A stretch of 34,711 nucleotides of DNA from positions 1 through 34,711 of the forward strand of contig CAMAMB010000018.1 of assembly GCA_945836755.1 (NCBI GenBank), written 5' to 3'. The position numbers and the translations under genes are program-made. The DNA is from an uncultured Bacteroidales bacterium. GTDB taxonomy: Bacteria > Bacteroidota > Bacteroidia > Bacteroidales > Bacteroidaceae. Below, piece after piece: positions 4,821 to 34,711 of this stretch (position 1 is its first letter; every line of letters starts with the position of its first letter). The notes beneath the pieces were generated by a model. The model searched no databases. It had not been told where the DNA came from and worked only from the letters and a program-made list of their open reading frames with translations.

Positions 4821-4967
4821 GCTGCCGGCTGCCGGGCGCTGGGCGCAGTACCAAGCTCACCCTGACAAAGCGTTTGCGCTGAACTCTAACGAGCCTCCGG
4901 ACCATGCCGCAAGGAGAGGCCGGGCCATGCCGGCTAACGGCAAAATGGCAGGCTGCATATACGGCTC

Positions 4968-5009
4968 ACTGGAAGCAGCCCAGAAAAAACTGCAATGCTT
5001 CCAGTTTTT
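4968..5009 (+). terminator. Hairpin with T-run inside repeat R2
   Basis: A perfect 10-bp stem, ACTGGAAGCA (4968-4977) with TGCTTCCAGT (4996-5005), an 18-nt loop and then TTTT. The shape is that of an intrinsic terminator for transcripts coming from the cytidylyltransferase gene. The same stem is conserved in copies R1 and R3. Confidence 0.5.
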
Positions 5010-5090
5010 CTTAGATGCCTTGGCGTGGTGAGGCAAGCAGCCGGACAATTTCTTAGATGCCTTGGCGTGGTGAGGCAAGCAGCCGGACAA
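5007..5090. repeat. 42-bp exact tandem duplication
   Basis: Two identical 42-bp units abut at 5007-5048 and 5049-5090, each starting TTTCTTAGATGCCTTGG and ending CCGGACAA. The length is twice the 21-bp period seen in other arrays here. Copy R3 has only one unit, so the number varies between copies. Confidence 0.9.
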
Positions 5091-9680: not shown

Positions 9681-9725
9681 TCGCAGCCTCCCCCGCAGAG
9701 CATGCTTCTCGACATAAGCTTACTT

Positions 9726-9777
9726 GACACAAGGCGCACCTCGTTTATCTTCCCTTGAACGTGGTGCGCCTGTTGTC
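9726..9777 (+). terminator. Terminator-like hairpin after hexosaminidase
   Basis: A 9-bp perfect stem, AGGCGCACC (9732-9740) with GGTGCGCCT (9763-9771), extended by GACA/TGTC across a 2x2 internal loop. No U-tract follows. Confidence 0.5.
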
Positions 9778-9873
9778 GCAGCATGATGGCTTCCATGTGT
9801 CAGGATATTTGACCCCTTTCTAAGAGAATGGTTTAATTTACCCCACAGAATAGCCACAAATTCTTGTAGCAAG

Positions 9874-9904
9874 TTTGTAACAAATATAGTTTCTATTACC
9901 TTTG
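9874..9904 (+). promoter_or_regulatory. Bacteroidetes promoter of the VTC/DUF4956 cluster
   Basis: TTTG at 9874-9877, exactly 19 bp, then TACCTTTG at 9897-9904: a perfect match to the TTTG-N19-TAnnTTTG consensus. It lies 59 bp upstream of the ATG at 9964. Confidence 0.8.
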
Positions 9905-9963
9905 CGGTGTTATAGGGCTCTCAGTTCCTCCGCGAGCGCAACCTTCAATCTGTGTCATTGACT

Positions 9964-10740
9964 ATGAAAACCACACACGCTCAAATCAACCGGATATTGC
10001 ACGAGATGCCGCCCATCACGCTTGACGAGATGCACCAGATACGTCTCATGAAGCGCACCGACAGCAAGTACGTCACCAATGTCACTACCCTGCTGCGCCT
10101 GCTCCGGCTGGCGCAGGGTCACTATTATGCCCAGCAGAATGAAGGCAGCTTCATCAGTCCCTACGCCACCACCTACTGGGACTTGAAGGGTGGACCCACC
10201 ATGTTCAGCCTGCATCAGGCAGGCCACTTGCCGCGCACCAAGGTCAGGGTACGCACCTACGTCAGCTCGGCCCAGTCGTTTCTCGAGGTCAAGAAGAAGG
10301 ACAACCACGGCAAGACCTCTAAGAAGAGGGTGAGCGTACCCTCAGTTGATGCCGTCATGAACGACCATGTGGGCGAAGACTTCCTCCACCAGCGCACCGG
10401 CCTCACCTTCAACATGTTGCAGCCCACTGTCGGCAACAGCTTCAGCCGCATCACTCTTGTCAATTATGAGAAGACGGAGCGCCTCACCATAGACTTCGGC
10501 CTCCACTTTCACAACTATCAGACAGACTGCGACAAAGACATGGACGACGCTGTCATCATCGAGCTGAAGCGCGACGGCCGGGCTCCGTCTCCCATCCTGC
10601 CCTTGCTGCGCACCCTGCGCATCAAGCCCTCGGGCTTCAGCAAGTACTGCATAGGCTCTGTGGTAACCAACGAGGGTCTGCGTGTCAACCGCTTCAAGAA
10701 GCGCCTTATCAAGATAGGCAAGGCCGTAGCCCGCGCCTAA
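9964..10740 (+). CDS. VTC-domain polyphosphate polymerase-like protein
   Basis: The 258-residue cytosolic protein matches the VTC domain, the tunnel-shaped polymerase that makes polyphosphate from ATP in yeast Vtc4. Expected charged tunnel residues are visible: KRTDSKY (30-36), KVRVR (93-97), the EVKKK segment (108-112), IIELKRD (198-204) and FSKYCIG (225-231). It lacks an SPX domain and membrane helices, as in bacterial homologues. Start chosen at ATG 9964; a GTG at 9952 adds four residues. It is first in a run with DUF4956 (78 bp later) and DUF2490. Whether the product is polyphosphate or another anionic polymer is not established for bacterial members; the partner genes suggest envelope function. 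Confidence 0.85.
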   Translation: MKTTHAQINRILHEMPPITLDEMHQIRLMKRTDSKYVTNVTTLLRLLRLAQGHYYAQQNEGSFISPYATTYWDLKGGPTMFSLHQAGHLPRTKVRVRTYVSSAQSFLEVKKKDNHGKTSKKRVSVPSVDAVMNDHVGEDFLHQRTGLTFNMLQPTVGNSFSRITLVNYEKTERLTIDFGLHFHNYQTDCDKDMDDAVIIELKRDGRAPSPILPLLRTLRIKPSGFSKYCIGSVVTNEGLRVNRFKKRLIKIGKAVARA

Positions 10741-10818
10741 TCCATGAGGCCGGGCCCGCCCCCCGGATATAGTTCATACCATTCATATCAACCACTTCCT
10801 ATTTAACCACCTCCTGTC

Positions 10819-11487
10819 ATGAACCAACTTCTCTCCAACTTCTTCTCGGCAGAGAATTTCACCCTGAGCCCCAACATCCTCAGCCTCGTGATGGCCCTCG
10901 TGCTCAACACGCTCGTCACCTGGCTGATTGTCCACTTCTTCTACTACCCCAAGGGCCACCGCCGCGACTATTATTTCACCTTCGTCCTGCTCTCCGTGAG
11001 CATCTTCATGCTCATCTCCTTGCTTCTGCAGGGCGCTACCGACATGGGTATAGGCGCTGCCCTTGGCCTCTTTGCCATATTCGGCATCATACGTTACCGC
11101 ACAGAGAGCGTGCCCATACGTGAGATGACCTACCTCTTCACCCTCGTCGCCCTCTCCGTCATCAATGGCCGCTATACCACCTTCACCGTGCTCGAGGAGC
11201 TGCTTATCAATGCTATCTTTATAGCCTGCGTTTGGGCTTGCGAGACTTTCCTCACCTCCAGTAAGGAAGGATGTAAGTATGTGAAGTATGACAACATCGA
11301 CCTCATACGGCCCGACCGCATGGACGAGCTCAAAGCCGACCTCGAACAACGGCTCGGCATTAAAATCACCCGTATCGACGTGGGGGCGGTTGACTTCCTT
11401 ACAGACATGACGATGCTGCGTGTCTTCTACTACGATCCTGAAGGACGCATCAAGTCGGTTGATCGCTTGCTAAAGATACCTAACTGA
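10819..11487 (+). CDS. DUF4956 membrane protein
   Basis: This 222-residue integral membrane protein has about four to five helices in its first 145 residues (roughly 20-44, 52-70, 75-92, 103-118, 124-142) and a soluble C-terminal domain of about 75 residues. The signature GLFAIFGIIRYRTESVPIREMTYLF (about 81-105, most of it visible) is characteristic of DUF4956. DUF4956 genes commonly neighbour VTC-domain genes in Bacteroidetes and Firmicutes, so a complex or a transport/regulatory partnership with the polymerase is plausible. The function is unknown. It lies in the same transcription unit, 32 bp before the DUF2490 gene. Confidence 0.88.
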   Translation: MNQLLSNFFSAENFTLSPNILSLVMALVLNTLVTWLIVHFFYYPKGHRRDYYFTFVLLSVSIFMLISLLLQGATDMGIGAALGLFAIFGIIRYRTESVPIREMTYLFTLVALSVINGRYTTFTVLEELLINAIFIACVWACETFLTSSKEGCKYVKYDNIDLIRPDRMDELKADLEQRLGIKITRIDVGAVDFLTDMTMLRVFYYDPEGRIKSVDRLLKIPN

Positions 11488-11519
11488 TTTCTCCTCCCAT
11501 CCTCTCCATCCCCCCATCT

Positions 11520-12398
11520 ATGAAGAAGCTCCTTACCGCCCTCTTGCTCGCTGCTCCCCTGTCGCTACATGCCGGCGACGATTTCGGCCTCTGGACAGGC
11601 GTGGCCGTGCAGAAAGACATTAGCAAGAAGTTCAGTGCCGAAGCCTCCCTTGACTTCCGTGCCGAGGACAAGTTGCGCCGGGCTGCCCGCTGGGACCTCG
11701 GGCTCGGCGCCAGCTACAAGCCTTTCAAGTTCCTCAGTTTCGGCGTAGGCTATGACTACATCTACCAGCAGGTGCCCTCTGAGGCCAAAGAGAAGTGGGA
11801 GCTGCGGCTTGACGACGACGACGAGCCCGTGCTCGATGCCGATGGGGCACCGCAGTACGACTTCAAAGGCTACAACCTCGACCATGCCTTCTGGCGCTCC
11901 AAGCATCGCTTCAGCCTCAGTGCCAGCGGCAAGGTAGACGTAGGCCGCTTCACCTTCTCACTCAGAGAGCGCTATCAGTATACACGCACCCTCGGCACCA
12001 CCTGCGACCGCGACAAGTATCGGGGGCCGATACCGCCCGAGATGCTGCAAGGTGGATACGCCGGAGAGGTGTATGAGTGTGGAGACCAGGCGTTTACCAC
12101 GCTCAAGCATGAGACCGACACCAAGCATGCCAAGACGTCCCACTATCTGCGTTCCCGCATAGGCATCGACTACAACATAAACCATTGCCCCGTCGATCCC
12201 TTTGCCAGCATCGAGTGGTACAACAATCTCAAAGAGGGGCTTGAGCTCAACAAGCAGCGCATCATGGTGGGCGCCGAGTGGAAGATTACCAAGAAGCACC
12301 GCATAGAGGCCGCCTACCTCTATCAGAGCACCCATGGTGACGATGACGACGAGGCCGACCTCCATGCCATCACCCTCAGTTACAAGTTTAAGTTCTAA
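11520..12398 (+). CDS. DUF2490 outer-membrane beta-barrel protein
   Basis: The 292-residue protein begins with a signal peptide (MKKLLTALLLAAPLSLHAG) and continues with alternating amphipathic strands such as FGLWTGVAVQKDISKKFSAE and FLSFGVGYDYIYQQ, ending in ITLSYKFKF with a terminal Phe typical of outer-membrane barrels. It matches DUF2490. An acidic loop (LDDDDEPVLDADG) and a Cys-containing insertion (TTCDRDKY...YECGD) are distinctive. Its position behind the VTC and DUF4956 genes suggests an outer-membrane component of the same pathway, but no direct function is known. A hairpin follows at 12408-12447. Confidence 0.82.
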   Translation: MKKLLTALLLAAPLSLHAGDDFGLWTGVAVQKDISKKFSAEASLDFRAEDKLRRAARWDLGLGASYKPFKFLSFGVGYDYIYQQVPSEAKEKWELRLDDDDEPVLDADGAPQYDFKGYNLDHAFWRSKHRFSLSASGKVDVGRFTFSLRERYQYTRTLGTTCDRDKYRGPIPPEMLQGGYAGEVYECGDQAFTTLKHETDTKHAKTSHYLRSRIGIDYNINHCPVDPFASIEWYNNLKEGLELNKQRIMVGAEWKITKKHRIEAAYLYQSTHGDDDDEADLHAITLSYKFKF

Positions 12399-12407
12399 GG
12401 TCTATCG

Positions 12408-12447
12408 GCGGCTCACCGGCCGGCATCTACCCGGCGGGCTGAGCCGC
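12408..12447 (+). terminator. Hairpin between DUF2490 gene and the next gene
   Basis: Stem GCGGCTCA (12408-12415) with TGAGCCGC (12440-12447). It may partly terminate or attenuate transcription within the cluster. There is no U-tract. Confidence 0.35.
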
Positions 12448-12466
12448 TGCCTCAACTCTTACAGCC

Positions 12467-12892
12467 ATGAAACATTTACTACTCTCTCTCCTCCCGGCCC
12501 TCTGCTGCCTCTCGGCAGGGGCGCAGACTTATGGCTATCTGACGTTACGCACCGGCCAAGATCATGCCGTCAGTTTCTCGTCCGAGGCTCTCAAACTCAC
12601 CTTTGCCTCCGGCCAGGTGACCGTCTCCGGTGCAGGCCAGGCGGCCACCTTCCCCTTGTCCCAGCTCACCTCCATGGCCTTCACCACAGAGGCCGCCGGC
12701 ATTCACGATGTCAGCCTTGATAGCCGCCGTGTCACCATCCTCAATGGGCGGCTCCGCGTCGAGGGCGCTGAAGGCGCTCCCGTAAGCCTGTGGTCAAGCG
12801 ACGGCCGCAGCCTCTCCCCCGCAGCTCTTCTTCCCCGCGGCGTCTATATGGTACGTGTAGGGGGACAAACCTTTAAAGTACTGGCACGATGA
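12467..12892 (+). CDS. Small secreted protein with sorting-domain-like C-terminus
   Basis: The 141-residue protein has a clear signal peptide (MKHLLLSLLPALCCLSAGAQ). The rest is beta-rich; its ending, SLWSSDGRSLSPAALLPRGV followed by a short VRVGG strand and a basic terminus, resembles the last strands of type A sorting domains used by the type IX secretion system (the D/NG-R/Q...L..G.Y.V pattern). Its stop codon overlaps the start of the next gene (ATGA at 12889-12892), so the two are translationally coupled. I do not recognise a named family for the N-terminal part. A role as an accessory of the downstream beta-helix protein is inference. Confidence 0.75.
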   Translation: MKHLLLSLLPALCCLSAGAQTYGYLTLRTGQDHAVSFSSEALKLTFASGQVTVSGAGQAATFPLSQLTSMAFTTEAAGIHDVSLDSRRVTILNGRLRVEGAEGAPVSLWSSDGRSLSPAALLPRGVYMVRVGGQTFKVLAR

Positions 12893-14130
12893 AACGTCTA
12901 TCCTTCACCCTCTTCCGCGCCATGCTCAGCCTTTGCGTGGCCTCATTGCCCCTCATGCGAGTGGCCGCACAGACCATGAAAGTATACACCGGACAGGTCT
13001 GCACCGTCTATCCGGCCTCACTCACCGGCGAGATGCCCTTCAGTCAAAACGGCGACCTGCTCACCATCCACGGCAAAGCCTTCTCCACCTCACAGGTGGA
13101 CAGCATCATCGTAGACCGCAGTGCCTGCCCCTCCTCACAAGTGGATGTCAGATACGCGGGCGCCAAAGCCTGGGTCACAGTGGCGGGCAACGTGGCCGCT
13201 CTACTCAACGTCAGTGTGGAGGGCGCCCATGTCAGTGTGCTGCAAGACGCAGCCCTCGCCACAGAGGTCACATACAGCCTCAGCGGACAGAGCACGCAGG
13301 GCTCCTTCGCCATGGACGGCGAATACAAAGCCACTCTCCTGCTCAATGGCCTTACCCTCTCCAACACTGACCGCGCGGCCATCGACATTGCCAATGGCAA
13401 GCGTATCGCCGTCAAGCTGCCCGCAGGCACCACGACCACCCTCAGCGATGGCGCCACCGGCCTTCAGAAAGCCTGCTTCTTCATCAACGGCCATGCCGAG
13501 TTTGAAGGCAGAGGCCAGCTGGTGCTCACAGGGAATGCCCGCCACGCCTACGCCTCTGACGAGTATACCTCCTTCTCCACCGACTTCGGCAGCCTCACCG
13601 TCAATGCTGCCCAGAACGACGGTCTGCACATAGGCCAGTACCTCGACCTGCGTGGAGGCACCTTCATCGTCAAGGGCACAGGAGGCGACTGCTTCGACAT
13701 CGAAAAGACCAAAGACCCCACCGACGAGGACAACGGCTTCGTGCGCATCAGCGGCGGAAGCCTGGATCTCAGTGTGACTACCGACGACACCAAGGGCCTC
13801 AAAAACGACTCCCTCTTCTACATCACCGGCGGCATCGTCAAGGCCAACGTAGCCGGCAATGGCTGCAAGGGCATCAGCGCAGGATGGGACATGTTTATCA
13901 ACGACACCTCGGGCAGCGCACCCTCCATCGAGATGACCGTCAGCGGCACCACCTACATGCCCGGTAATGAATTGCTTGAATCAAAGTGCCGCGGCATCAA
14001 GGGCAAGCATAATCTCACCTTCAACGGCGGTACCATCCGCATGACCGTCACCGGCAATAAGGCCAAGGGCATCTCTTTAGATGGGTCGTGGATCTATGTC
14101 AAGGGGTCAACCAACGTGTTGCCCTCCTGA
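12889..14130 (+). CDS. Cthe_2159-type carbohydrate-binding beta-helix protein
   Basis: The 413-residue secreted protein starts with a signal peptide (MKRLSFTLFRAMLSLCVASL...AAQ). From about residue 125 it has repeated short beta-helix turns: YKATLLLNGLTLSNTDRAAI, FINGHAEFEGRGQLVLTG, LRGGTFIVKGTGGDCFDIE, ISGGSLDLSVTTDDTKGLKN, VKANVAGNGCKGIS, FNGGTIRMTVTGNKAKGIS. This rung pattern with G-K-G-I motifs is that of the Cthe_2159 family, calcium-containing parallel beta-helices reported to bind acidic polysaccharides. Such proteins recur beside VTC and DUF4956 genes, which supports a polymer-binding role at the cell surface. It overlaps the upstream gene by 4 bp and is followed directly by a strong hairpin. 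The C-terminus stops soon after the last rung, with no capping or sorting domain, so slight truncation is possible. Confidence 0.82.
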   Translation: MKRLSFTLFRAMLSLCVASLPLMRVAAQTMKVYTGQVCTVYPASLTGEMPFSQNGDLLTIHGKAFSTSQVDSIIVDRSACPSSQVDVRYAGAKAWVTVAGNVAALLNVSVEGAHVSVLQDAALATEVTYSLSGQSTQGSFAMDGEYKATLLLNGLTLSNTDRAAIDIANGKRIAVKLPAGTTTTLSDGATGLQKACFFINGHAEFEGRGQLVLTGNARHAYASDEYTSFSTDFGSLTVNAAQNDGLHIGQYLDLRGGTFIVKGTGGDCFDIEKTKDPTDEDNGFVRISGGSLDLSVTTDDTKGLKNDSLFYITGGIVKANVAGNGCKGISAGWDMFINDTSGSAPSIEMTVSGTTYMPGNELLESKCRGIKGKHNLTFNGGTIRMTVTGNKAKGISLDGSWIYVKGSTNVLPS

Positions 14131-14158
14131 CGCCTGTTCCCCTCGCTCCTCCGGACTT

Positions 14159-14196
14159 GAGGCTGAGCCGTCATCGTAGTGTGACGGCTCAGCCTC
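14159..14196 (+). terminator. Terminator-like hairpin closing the VTC cluster
   Basis: A perfect 15-bp stem, GAGGCTGAGCCGTCA (14159-14173) with TGACGGCTCAGCCTC (14182-14196), and an 8-nt loop. It is the strongest hairpin in the window and starts 28 bp after the stop codon. No U-tract follows. Confidence 0.65.
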
Positions 14197-14312
14197 ATTG
14201 CTATGTCCGCGAGGCAGAGATGCTCCCCGCGCCCCGGGCAGAGACACCCAGCCGCCCGTCTTTCGCCGCCGGCATGTCGGGGTGGCGTGTTGTCAGGCCA
14301 GACCTACCGCTC

Positions 14313-14944
14313 CATGCCCTATACAAGGTGGTTACCCATTTCTTCTGCCATTTCATACACTATCGCGCTACACACCTATGTATCAAATTCTTACGTATGG
14401 CAGATAGGCCTTCTCCACCTTGCACACACCTGCCACTCATCTTACACACCCTACTACTTATCTTGCACGCCCGGCCACTCATCTTCCCCCCCCGGCCACT
14501 CATCTTGCACACATTTGCCATCTCCCTTACACGGAAACCTCGTCGCAGGCCTTACTCACACTTCGCTCGGCGCTTGCAGGATGGGGAGATGGCCTACCCA
14601 CCTTGTACCGGGCGCGCATTCCCTCCACCGGATACCTCTGACGCTGCCACCAATGCTACATTCATTGCAGGTTGGCGCGCCAAATGCTACATACGCAATT
14701 CCGTGTATATCAGGTGGTTGTAAAATCAGTGCAAGGTTGTAAGTGGAAATGGCAAACATGTGCCGTAAGTAGGGGCATGCGTCATGTGGCAGACTTCCAA
14801 CCTGCCACTGGTCGTACAGAAAAATTGTCCGACTGCTTGCCCCATCCTGCCAAGGCATCTAAGAAAAACTGGAAGCATTGCAGTTTTTCCTGGGCTGCTT
14901 CCAGTGAGCCGTATATGCAGCCTGCCATTTTTCCGTTAGCCGGC
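14313..14944 (-). repeat. Long intergenic repeat, copy R3
   Basis: This is an inverted counterpart of R2. The 34-bp segment at about 14754-14787 (GCAAACATGTGCCGTAAGTA onward) is identical to the reverse complement of 5130-5163, and the flanking blocks follow in the same order. It also includes the conserved hairpin (14868-14877 with 14896-14905) and a 21-bp array (14431-14514). R2 and R3 face each other about 8.7 kb apart. Confidence 0.8.
14431..14514. repeat. 21-bp tandem array inside R3 (4 units)
   Basis: Four units start at 14431, 14452, 14473 and 14494, each resembling GGCCACTCATCTTGCACAC. The corresponding part of R2 (about 5380-5440) has fewer and more diverged units. The array therefore expanded or contracted after the two copies separated. 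Confidence 0.75.
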
Positions 14945-15100: not shown

Positions 15101-15298
15101 TTAGGCAGCGGGTTCAGCAACGGTGTCAGCAGCAGCAGAGTCAGCAGCAGCAGAATCAACAACTGCAGAGTCAGCGGCGCTGTCAACGATAGCAGAGTCA
15201 GCTACAGAGTCAGCAGCAGCTGCATCAGAAGTCTTGTTACCGCAAGAAGCGAAAGAGATAGCTGCGAAAGCTACGAACATGAAAACTAACTTTTTCAT
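15101..15298 (-). CDS. Small Ala/Asp/Ser-rich lipoprotein
   Basis: The 65-residue product begins MKKLVFMFVAFAAISFASCG: a lipoprotein signal peptide with cleavage before Cys19. The mature part is nearly all Ala, Asp, Ser and Val in repeats of the form DSAxxDSAADSA, highly acidic and probably disordered. It has its own perfect promoter and an intrinsic terminator, so it is a real, probably well-expressed gene despite low complexity. Similar small repetitive lipoproteins occur in Bacteroidales, but their function is unknown to me. The repeated GCAGACTCT-type codons could expand or contract by slippage. Confidence 0.8.
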   Translation of the reverse strand: MKKLVFMFVAFAAISFASCGNKTSDAAAADSVADSAIVDSAADSAVVDSAAADSAAADTVAEPAA

Positions 15299-23433: not shown

Positions 23434-23544
23434 GGGTTCGGGGACTATTTTTTTATGATTTCCCGATAAATCTTTCCGTGCGGTGCAACCTTCGGAGGCC
23501 GACGCCATGCTTCCGGGGCATCAACGCCATGCCTGGAGCTTTTT

Positions 23545-23740
23545 CTACATGTACATCTAAGAAAAACTGCATGTACATCTAAGAAAAACTGCATGTACAT
23601 GCCGTTAAAACTACATGTACATCTAAGAAAAACTACATGTACATGCCGTTAAAACTACATGTACATCTAAGAAGAACTACATGTACATGCCGTTCGAACT
23701 ACATGTACATCCAGAAAAAAACTACATATACATGCAGGTA
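23545..23740. repeat. 22-bp tandem array with palindromic ACATGTACAT core (9 units)
   Basis: Units start at 23545, 23567, 23589, 23611, 23633, 23655, 23677, 23699 and 23722. Each begins CTACATGTACAT or CTGCATGTACAT and ends in an A-rich linker. Two linker types alternate: CTAAGAAAAA in units 1, 2, 4 and 6, and GCCGTTAAAA-like in units 3, 5 and 7, giving a 44-bp higher-order period. This is not a CRISPR, because there are no unique spacers. Confidence 0.9.
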
Positions 23741-34270: not shown

Positions 34271-34519
34271 AATAGTGTCCTGTCCGCCATCATGGGCTTA
34301 CGCGAGGTGACGCCGGCGAATAGACCGATACGCTACCGGCTCAACGACAATCTCATGCCGATACGTCTTTGCGCAATGCAGTCCTGCAGCCATGCTACCC
34401 GTATGGCAGGCAATGCTGCTGTGAAGGCGTTCATGCGGTAGGCCAAATCCGATGGTCCTCGACCGGTTGGGAAGAAATCATATCCTCCAGTCTGACCCAG
34501 CCGGCAGGTCTAAGATTTC

Positions 34520-34651
34520 CTGCATGTACATGTAGTTTTTCCTAGATGTACATGTAGGAAAAACTGGATGTACATGTAGAAAAACCTAGATGTACATGTA
34601 GAAAAAACTGGATGTACATCTAGGAAAACCTGGATGTACATCTAGGAAAAA
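34520..34651. repeat. 22-bp tandem array with GATGTACATC core (6 units)
   Basis: Units start at 34520, 34542, 34564, 34586, 34608 and 34630. Each has the form CTGGATGTACATCTAGGAAA plus two bases. The core is palindromic (CATGTACATG, GATGTACATG or GATGTACATC). It is clearly the same family as the array at 23545-23740, with variant linkers. Confidence 0.9.
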
Positions 34652-34711
34652 CGGGGAGCATTGGAGTGATAGGGGTTGGCGATGTCGGTCTTGCGGGCCG
34701 CCGCGGATGCT

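Follow-up and report, generated by a model that had tools for sequence, protein, structure and literature searches.

A conserved VTC-DUF4956 operon of gut and rumen Bacteroidales as a candidate envelope polyphosphate system

In yeast, the complex of Vtc4 with Vtc1/Vtc3 couples polyphosphate synthesis to translocation, and the R264A/R266A/E426N substitutions impair catalysis and leave it inactive, according to the available part of that report (PMC9911596). R264 and R266 are described as essential for Vtc4 synthesis in the accessible text of another (PMC8749416). In Gram-positive bacteria, a CotH-VTC(PPP)-DUF4956-DUF4832 accessory cassette lies beside pelDEADAFG, and its DUF4956 protein SIR_1592 is described as an MgtC-like membrane part with an intracellular ACT domain (available portions of PMC7112168 and PMC12345266). 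In Streptococcus intermedius, the CotH mutant showed altered Pel level and aggregation (PMC12345266, same portion). The genes BT3498-BT3499 of Bacteroides thetaiotaomicron appear in an iron-response table at -7.6, with a second value of 0.175 (accessible part of PMC10434189). Proteins of the Cthe_2159 type are reported to bind cellulose and polygalacturonic acid. The subject of this study is a five-gene unit in contig CAMAMB010000018.1 of an uncultured Bacteroidales bacterium (assembly GCA_945836755.1). This contig of 34,711 nt is called the window; it is contig 18 of an assembly that is 85% complete, so that any gene absence is weak evidence.

Conservation of the five-gene unit

The unit comprises five co-directional genes (9964-14130) for a VTC-domain protein, a DUF4956 membrane protein, a DUF2490 protein, a small secreted protein and a Cthe_2159-type β-helix protein (Table 1). 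An earlier note, made from the letters of the window, had named these genes, and the names were correct: four of the products scored above the Pfam cut-off, and the Pfam scan gave no family above cut-off for the small protein. The open reading frame (ORF) of the VTC protein opens with GTG at 9952, but ATG at 9964 is by inspection the likelier start. The start of the Cthe_2159 gene overlaps the end of the small gene by 4 nt.

Relatives were collected as 80 named loci, found through DUF4956 alone, and were then searched with profiles built up from the proteins of the window; the alignments took part of the matches (A1, 31 of 80; A2, 31 of 81; A4, 36 of 75; A5, 28 of 65). Only the best DUF4956 relatives were kept, and the set is therefore biased. 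The closest named isolate by DUF4956, among the matches listed, is Prevotellamassilia timonensis (74% identity, residues 19-222). VTC lies no more than 400 nt upstream of DUF4956 in all 78 named loci with room for it. Where at least 4.2 kb follows (65 named loci), DUF2490 is never missing; Cthe_2159 occurs in 55 loci, the small protein in 52, and 50 loci have the complete set of five genes. This means that the association holds outside the window's own genome, within a clade, and that many Bacteroidales of gut and rumen keep the five-gene unit intact.

The unit is also compact. All five genes are consecutive in 56 loci, including the window; the median intergenic gaps in the named loci range from 3 to 29 nt, and the 4-nt overlap between the small gene and the Cthe_2159 gene is found in 23 of 57 loci. 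The next gene downstream is variable (40 clusters among 51 loci), and the upstream neighbour is partly conserved, with clusters of 20 and 19 among 55 loci. Gene order is retained where DUF4956 identity to the window copy is 43-74%, and the five-gene layout is therefore beyond chance. The five proteins diverge together, with pairwise distance correlations of 0.71-0.89 (57 loci, without a control family); this stepwise divergence indicates shared inheritance, not interaction.

A wider view was obtained from the order. Alternate rows of the VTC matches from 295 order genomes gave 74 stretches. L156 and L178 had no VTC ORF in the ORF calling, which left 72 loci, some of them on short contigs. L222 was a 10-base filler, L223 had no VTC ORF, and the ORF kept at the DUF4956 position of L218 is on the opposite strand. 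The same-strand neighbours of VTC were DUF4956 in 68 loci, DUF2490 in 32, CotH in 23, Cthe_2159 in 7 and, in a single locus, the small protein. From these counts, VTC-DUF4956 is the core, often joined by DUF2490, and the five-gene form is that of one clade.

CotH and Cthe_2159 never occurred together in the 72 loci; in some of these, e.g., with CotH in L172 and Cthe_2159 in L160, the two fill the same slot, which precedes an fn3-like lipoprotein gene and a small gene. Neither surface partner is part of the core, because 39 of the 72 loci, some on short contigs, have DUF4956-VTC without a same-strand copy of either. Twenty-six CotH proteins were found and 22 scanned: 20 match CotH, five contain a right-handed β-helix, and a tail for the type IX secretion system (T9SS) was recognised in 10 by Pfam or 11 by NCBIfam. 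The β-helix and T9SS export thus recur in the CotH and Cthe_2159 forms. CotH-type proteins of about 1000 residues adjoin DUF4956 and VTC in L163, L164, L180, L185, L191, L201 and L203.

Two other gene clusters were seen near VTC loci, one of His_kinase genes in 8 loci and one of LytTR response regulators in 7, each with one member named by Pfam. They are often directly 3' of DUF2490 (L190, L172, L210, L213 and others). PHO4 and Porin_O_P genes lie nearby on the opposite strand in L148.

The VTC active site, its partner proteins and the ends of the unit

The window VTC protein matches PF09359 with 80.4 bits against a cut-off of 23. A profile of 31 diverse bacterial VTC proteins matches yeast Vtc4 (3g3q, E 8e-19). 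Nineteen columns are invariant across these 31 proteins, and 16 of them are identical in Vtc4; the three that differ are R91/A260, K93/A262 and T175/S375. The window protein carries the Vtc4 residue at 20 of the 26 strongest profile positions, among them K35 (K200 in Vtc4), R95 (R264), R97 (R266), K110 (K281), K120 (K294), R162 (R361), E200 (E426), K202 (K428), S226 (S457) and K227 (K458). It departs from Vtc4 at Y250, A260, A262, H283 (K112 in the window), S375 and F459. The residues beyond R264, R266 and E426 are those that we take to line the tunnel. The catalytic R264, R266 and E426 are retained, and the active site is Vtc4-like. Polymerase activity, on which the earlier note had built its proposal, is compatible with these residues, and there is good evidence from the alignment that the window protein is of the polyphosphate polymerase type.

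In the model of the DUF4956 protein (mean predicted local distance difference test score of 77.8), five long helices are followed by a mixed α/β domain, which weakly resembles ACT domains. Among the matches listed in the profile and model searches there was no Vtc chain. R94 is found in 154 of 154 relatives and R92 in 96%. The DUF2490 protein has, by inspection, a signal peptide and a terminal F; its matches to OMP_b-brl and Porin_4 are weak and below cut-off.

The small protein, whose sorting-like end had been noticed earlier, terminates in a T9SS sorting domain, as judged by its fold and by its relatives. TIGR04183 and PF18962 match 26 and 16 of the 36 family members, respectively, at E <=0.01, and neither matches the window copy. 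By fold and relatives, the protein is T9SS type A cargo, and the translocon component SprA is encoded in its own genome (PF14349 E 5e-220, G000:C4). The profile of the Cthe_2159 protein matches 4peu (E 7e-26, profile positions 102-324), and the N-terminal stretch of this protein resembles the one found in the small protein (hhalign 96%, E 4e-9, with the signal peptides left in). The spread of the unit over cytosol, inner membrane, outer membrane and surface, as first proposed, is supported by these assignments, with the small protein ending in a sorting domain. It should be mentioned that a second Cthe_2159 gene lies outside the operon (G000:C30:2301-3005, E 3e-10).

The consensus promoter claimed ahead of VTC was found as a match to the Bacteroidetes promoter consensus, TTTG-N19-TACCTTTG, a pattern that occurs twice per strand in the 34.7 kb window. 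Among 78 relatives it lies upstream of VTC in only 10, and upstream of DUF2490 in none. The region's best match to sigma-70, at 9724, overlaps a hairpin downstream of a GH20 gene (9726-9777, or 9715-9785 as a wider range; -33.6 kcal/mol, z -6.9). In the hairpin that closes the unit, 14158-14173 pairs with 14182-14197 at 16 of 16 positions (-38.8 kcal/mol, z -6.8). No longer pair with full complementarity is found among the 25 window pairs listed, out of 33; as to the closing hairpin being the strongest of the window, that at 9715-9785 is nearly equal in strength. The closing hairpin is probably a terminator, and only probably, because no T-run is found 3' of it; for this reason it is missing from the output of the scan that gave the sigma-70-like match.

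Table 1. Features of the five-gene unit in the window
Feature	Position	Strand	Evidence
Bacteroidetes-type promoter, TTTG-N19-TACCTTTG	9874..9904	+	pattern scan
VTC-domain protein, predicted cytosolic polyphosphate polymerase	9964..10740	+	PF09359 E 2e-22; Vtc4 key residues
DUF4956 membrane protein	10819..11487	+	PF16316 E 4e-54
DUF2490 protein, predicted outer-membrane β-barrel	11520..12398	+	PF10677 E 2e-31
Small secreted protein, 141 aa, C-terminal T9SS type A sorting domain	12467..12892	+	fold and relatives
Cthe_2159-type β-helix protein	12889..14130	+	PF14262 E 8e-41; profile match to 4peu
Perfect 16-bp hairpin, 3' end of the unit	14158..14197	+	folding

Other elements lie outside the unit. 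A PG1828 family lipoprotein with an Ala/Asp/Ser-rich repeat tail is encoded at 15101-15298 (-), adjoined by TsaE and a RecA-like ORF (RecA by inspection). Copies of a dispersed repeat, whose core is CTAAGAAAAACT, lie at 4955-5018 and 14855-14918, and the 64-nt copy at 14855 has 30 matches at E <=0.001 in its own genome, itself counted. Related ATGTACAT units form two local arrays (23534-23710 and 34509-34652).

Possible function of the unit

The operon may be an envelope polyphosphate system, in which synthesis is coupled to export and surface retention. The VTC protein would make polyphosphate from ATP in the cytosol, as its conserved residues suggest. DUF4956 might tie this synthesis to the inner membrane, as a translocator or as a regulator, and the DUF2490 barrel might pass or position the product at the outer membrane. 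The Cthe_2159 β-helix and the T9SS-exported small protein would then hold the polyanion, or its ligand, at the surface. Polyphosphate is a plausible identity for the anionic polymer of the unit; the scan of nine window proteins gave no glycan synthase. The reading as a whole, with export as a putative step, is favoured tentatively, at somewhat less than an even chance. The S. intermedius VTC result given below and the co-occurrence with PPK1 keep it at this level.

Several observations weigh against this reading. In S. intermedius, deletion of the DUF4956 gene SIR_1592 raised Pel and lowered aggregation, and for deletion of VTC no change in Pel or aggregation is reported in the available part of the paper (PMC12345266). 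Neither the profile nor the model of DUF4956 gave a convincing fold match. The five-gene form is not general, as the single order locus with the small protein and the DUF2490 count of only 32 in 72 indicate. In the 295 order genomes, VTC and PPK1 occur independently (90 with both, 54 with VTC only, 101 with PPK1 only, 50 with neither; p 0.47).

In favour of the reading are the pairing of VTC with DUF4956 in the named and the order-wide loci, the presence of SprA, the PPK1, PPK2 and Ppx-GppA result given below, and the phosphate-labelled neighbours of the pair in five of the six loci opened outside the phylum, a number given without a background count. These six loci came from 11 matches in a DUF4956 search of plasmid records. 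The Deinococcus taeanensis plasmid has CotH-VTC-DUF4956. DUF4956-VTC-Phytase-like is the order in the Aminobacter and Shinella plasmids, and the Nitratireductor plasmid has DUF4956-VTC-PHO4 transporter with a phytase-like gene by annotation. A Pseudoalteromonas plasmid carries a VTC gene that is incomplete, together with DUF4956 and Porin_O_P; in Deinococcus QL22, acid phosphatase and phosphonate uptake genes are annotated nearby. Phytase-like and Porin_O_P are family names only, and only one locus has an outer-membrane porin where DUF2490 would stand.

VTC-domain genes are frequent, with 144 of 295 order genomes and 188 of 301 family genomes. No match to the PPK1, PPK2 or Ppx-GppA families was found in the window's own 85%-complete genome, although VTC is present. 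Within the family, VTC and PPK1 appear mutually exclusive (21 with both, 167 with VTC only, 68 with PPK1 only, 45 with neither; p 3e-19). This signal is clade-structured, PPK1 being present in all members of genera g2 (21) and g3 (19) among the matches listed, and the test at genus level is weak (p 0.046). A role of VTC as a general stand-in for PPK1 was rejected, since the order shows no exclusion; its polyphosphate may therefore not be the sole pool.

VTC-DUF4956 might instead be a cytosolic sensor of phosphate status. Polyphosphate would remain internal, the ACT-like domain of DUF4956 would tune an envelope glycan or surface protein, and the secreted genes would be targets. The S. intermedius phenotypes, with an effect of SIR_1592 but not of VTC, fit such a role, as do the ACT domain ascribed to DUF4956 in the published excerpts, which the present model recalls weakly, and the two-component genes that recur near several loci. 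It would leave unexplained why the DUF2490 barrel adjoins the pair in all 65 named loci with room for it, though the barrel is less regular order-wide, and we regard the sensor as rather unlikely. A role of the five genes in adhesion to plant polysaccharides seems rather unlikely to us as well. Here Cthe_2159 and the T9SS protein would bind acidic glycans, and VTC-DUF4956 would only energise or phosphorylate the assembly. The reported ligands of Cthe_2159, the many relatives with titles that point to rumen or gut and the CotH kinases in the same slot are in line with adhesion; the 39 loci with the pair but without either surface partner are not.

The TTM superfamily includes hydrolases. The VTC domain could be a triphosphate enzyme of the tunnel type that catalyses a different reaction, e.g., hydrolysis of short polyphosphate or nucleoside triphosphates. 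It stands alone in the window protein, and six of the 26 strong positions differ from Vtc4, H283 included. The ten Vtc4 residues named above are, however, invariant in the 31 diverse members and kept in five of five complete copies outside the phylum. Another reaction seems very unlikely to us.

A further extension of the envelope polyphosphate reading is speculative and decidedly unlikely. VTC-DUF4956 would export polyphosphate as a phosphate currency of the surface, serving T9SS-exported CotH as phosphoryl donor on the ATP-free exterior; with Cthe_2159 and the T9SS protein, the β-helix would bind polyphosphate, perhaps via calcium, in a phosphate-rich coat.

Should polyphosphate be exported, as in the main reading, gut bacteria would have a further way of placing it on their surface, and this could account for what CotH-type proteins draw on once they are secreted. 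The operon is small, has five parts and is open to testing in organisms related to cultured commensals.

Comparison with described systems

The unit had been put forward as undescribed. This is true in part: the VTC-DUF4956-CotH cassette is in print, and no description of the DUF2490/T9SS/Cthe_2159 form was found in the literature searched by domain names, which covered few subscription journals. In the same literature, as far as its available parts extend, no paper testing what a bacterial VTC makes was found.

The eukaryotic VTC complex and the window protein have the same catalytic core residues, but the 262-aa window ORF has neither SPX nor a Vtc membrane domain and contains only PF09359. 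Coupling of synthesis to a membrane partner would be common to both only in the proposed reading. With BT3498-BT3499, the unit has in common DUF4956 followed by DUF2490. Its Cthe_2159 protein belongs to the same family as Cthe_2159 of Clostridium thermocellum (4peu), and carries an extra N-terminal stretch. Neither CotH, in a scan that covered the whole unit, nor a Pel protein was found among the nine window proteins. What the unit and the Gram-positive Pel cassette have in common is VTC adjoining DUF4956 together with a secreted partner, whereas DUF2490, T9SS cargo, Cthe_2159, its own promoter and the Gram-negative envelope set the window unit apart.

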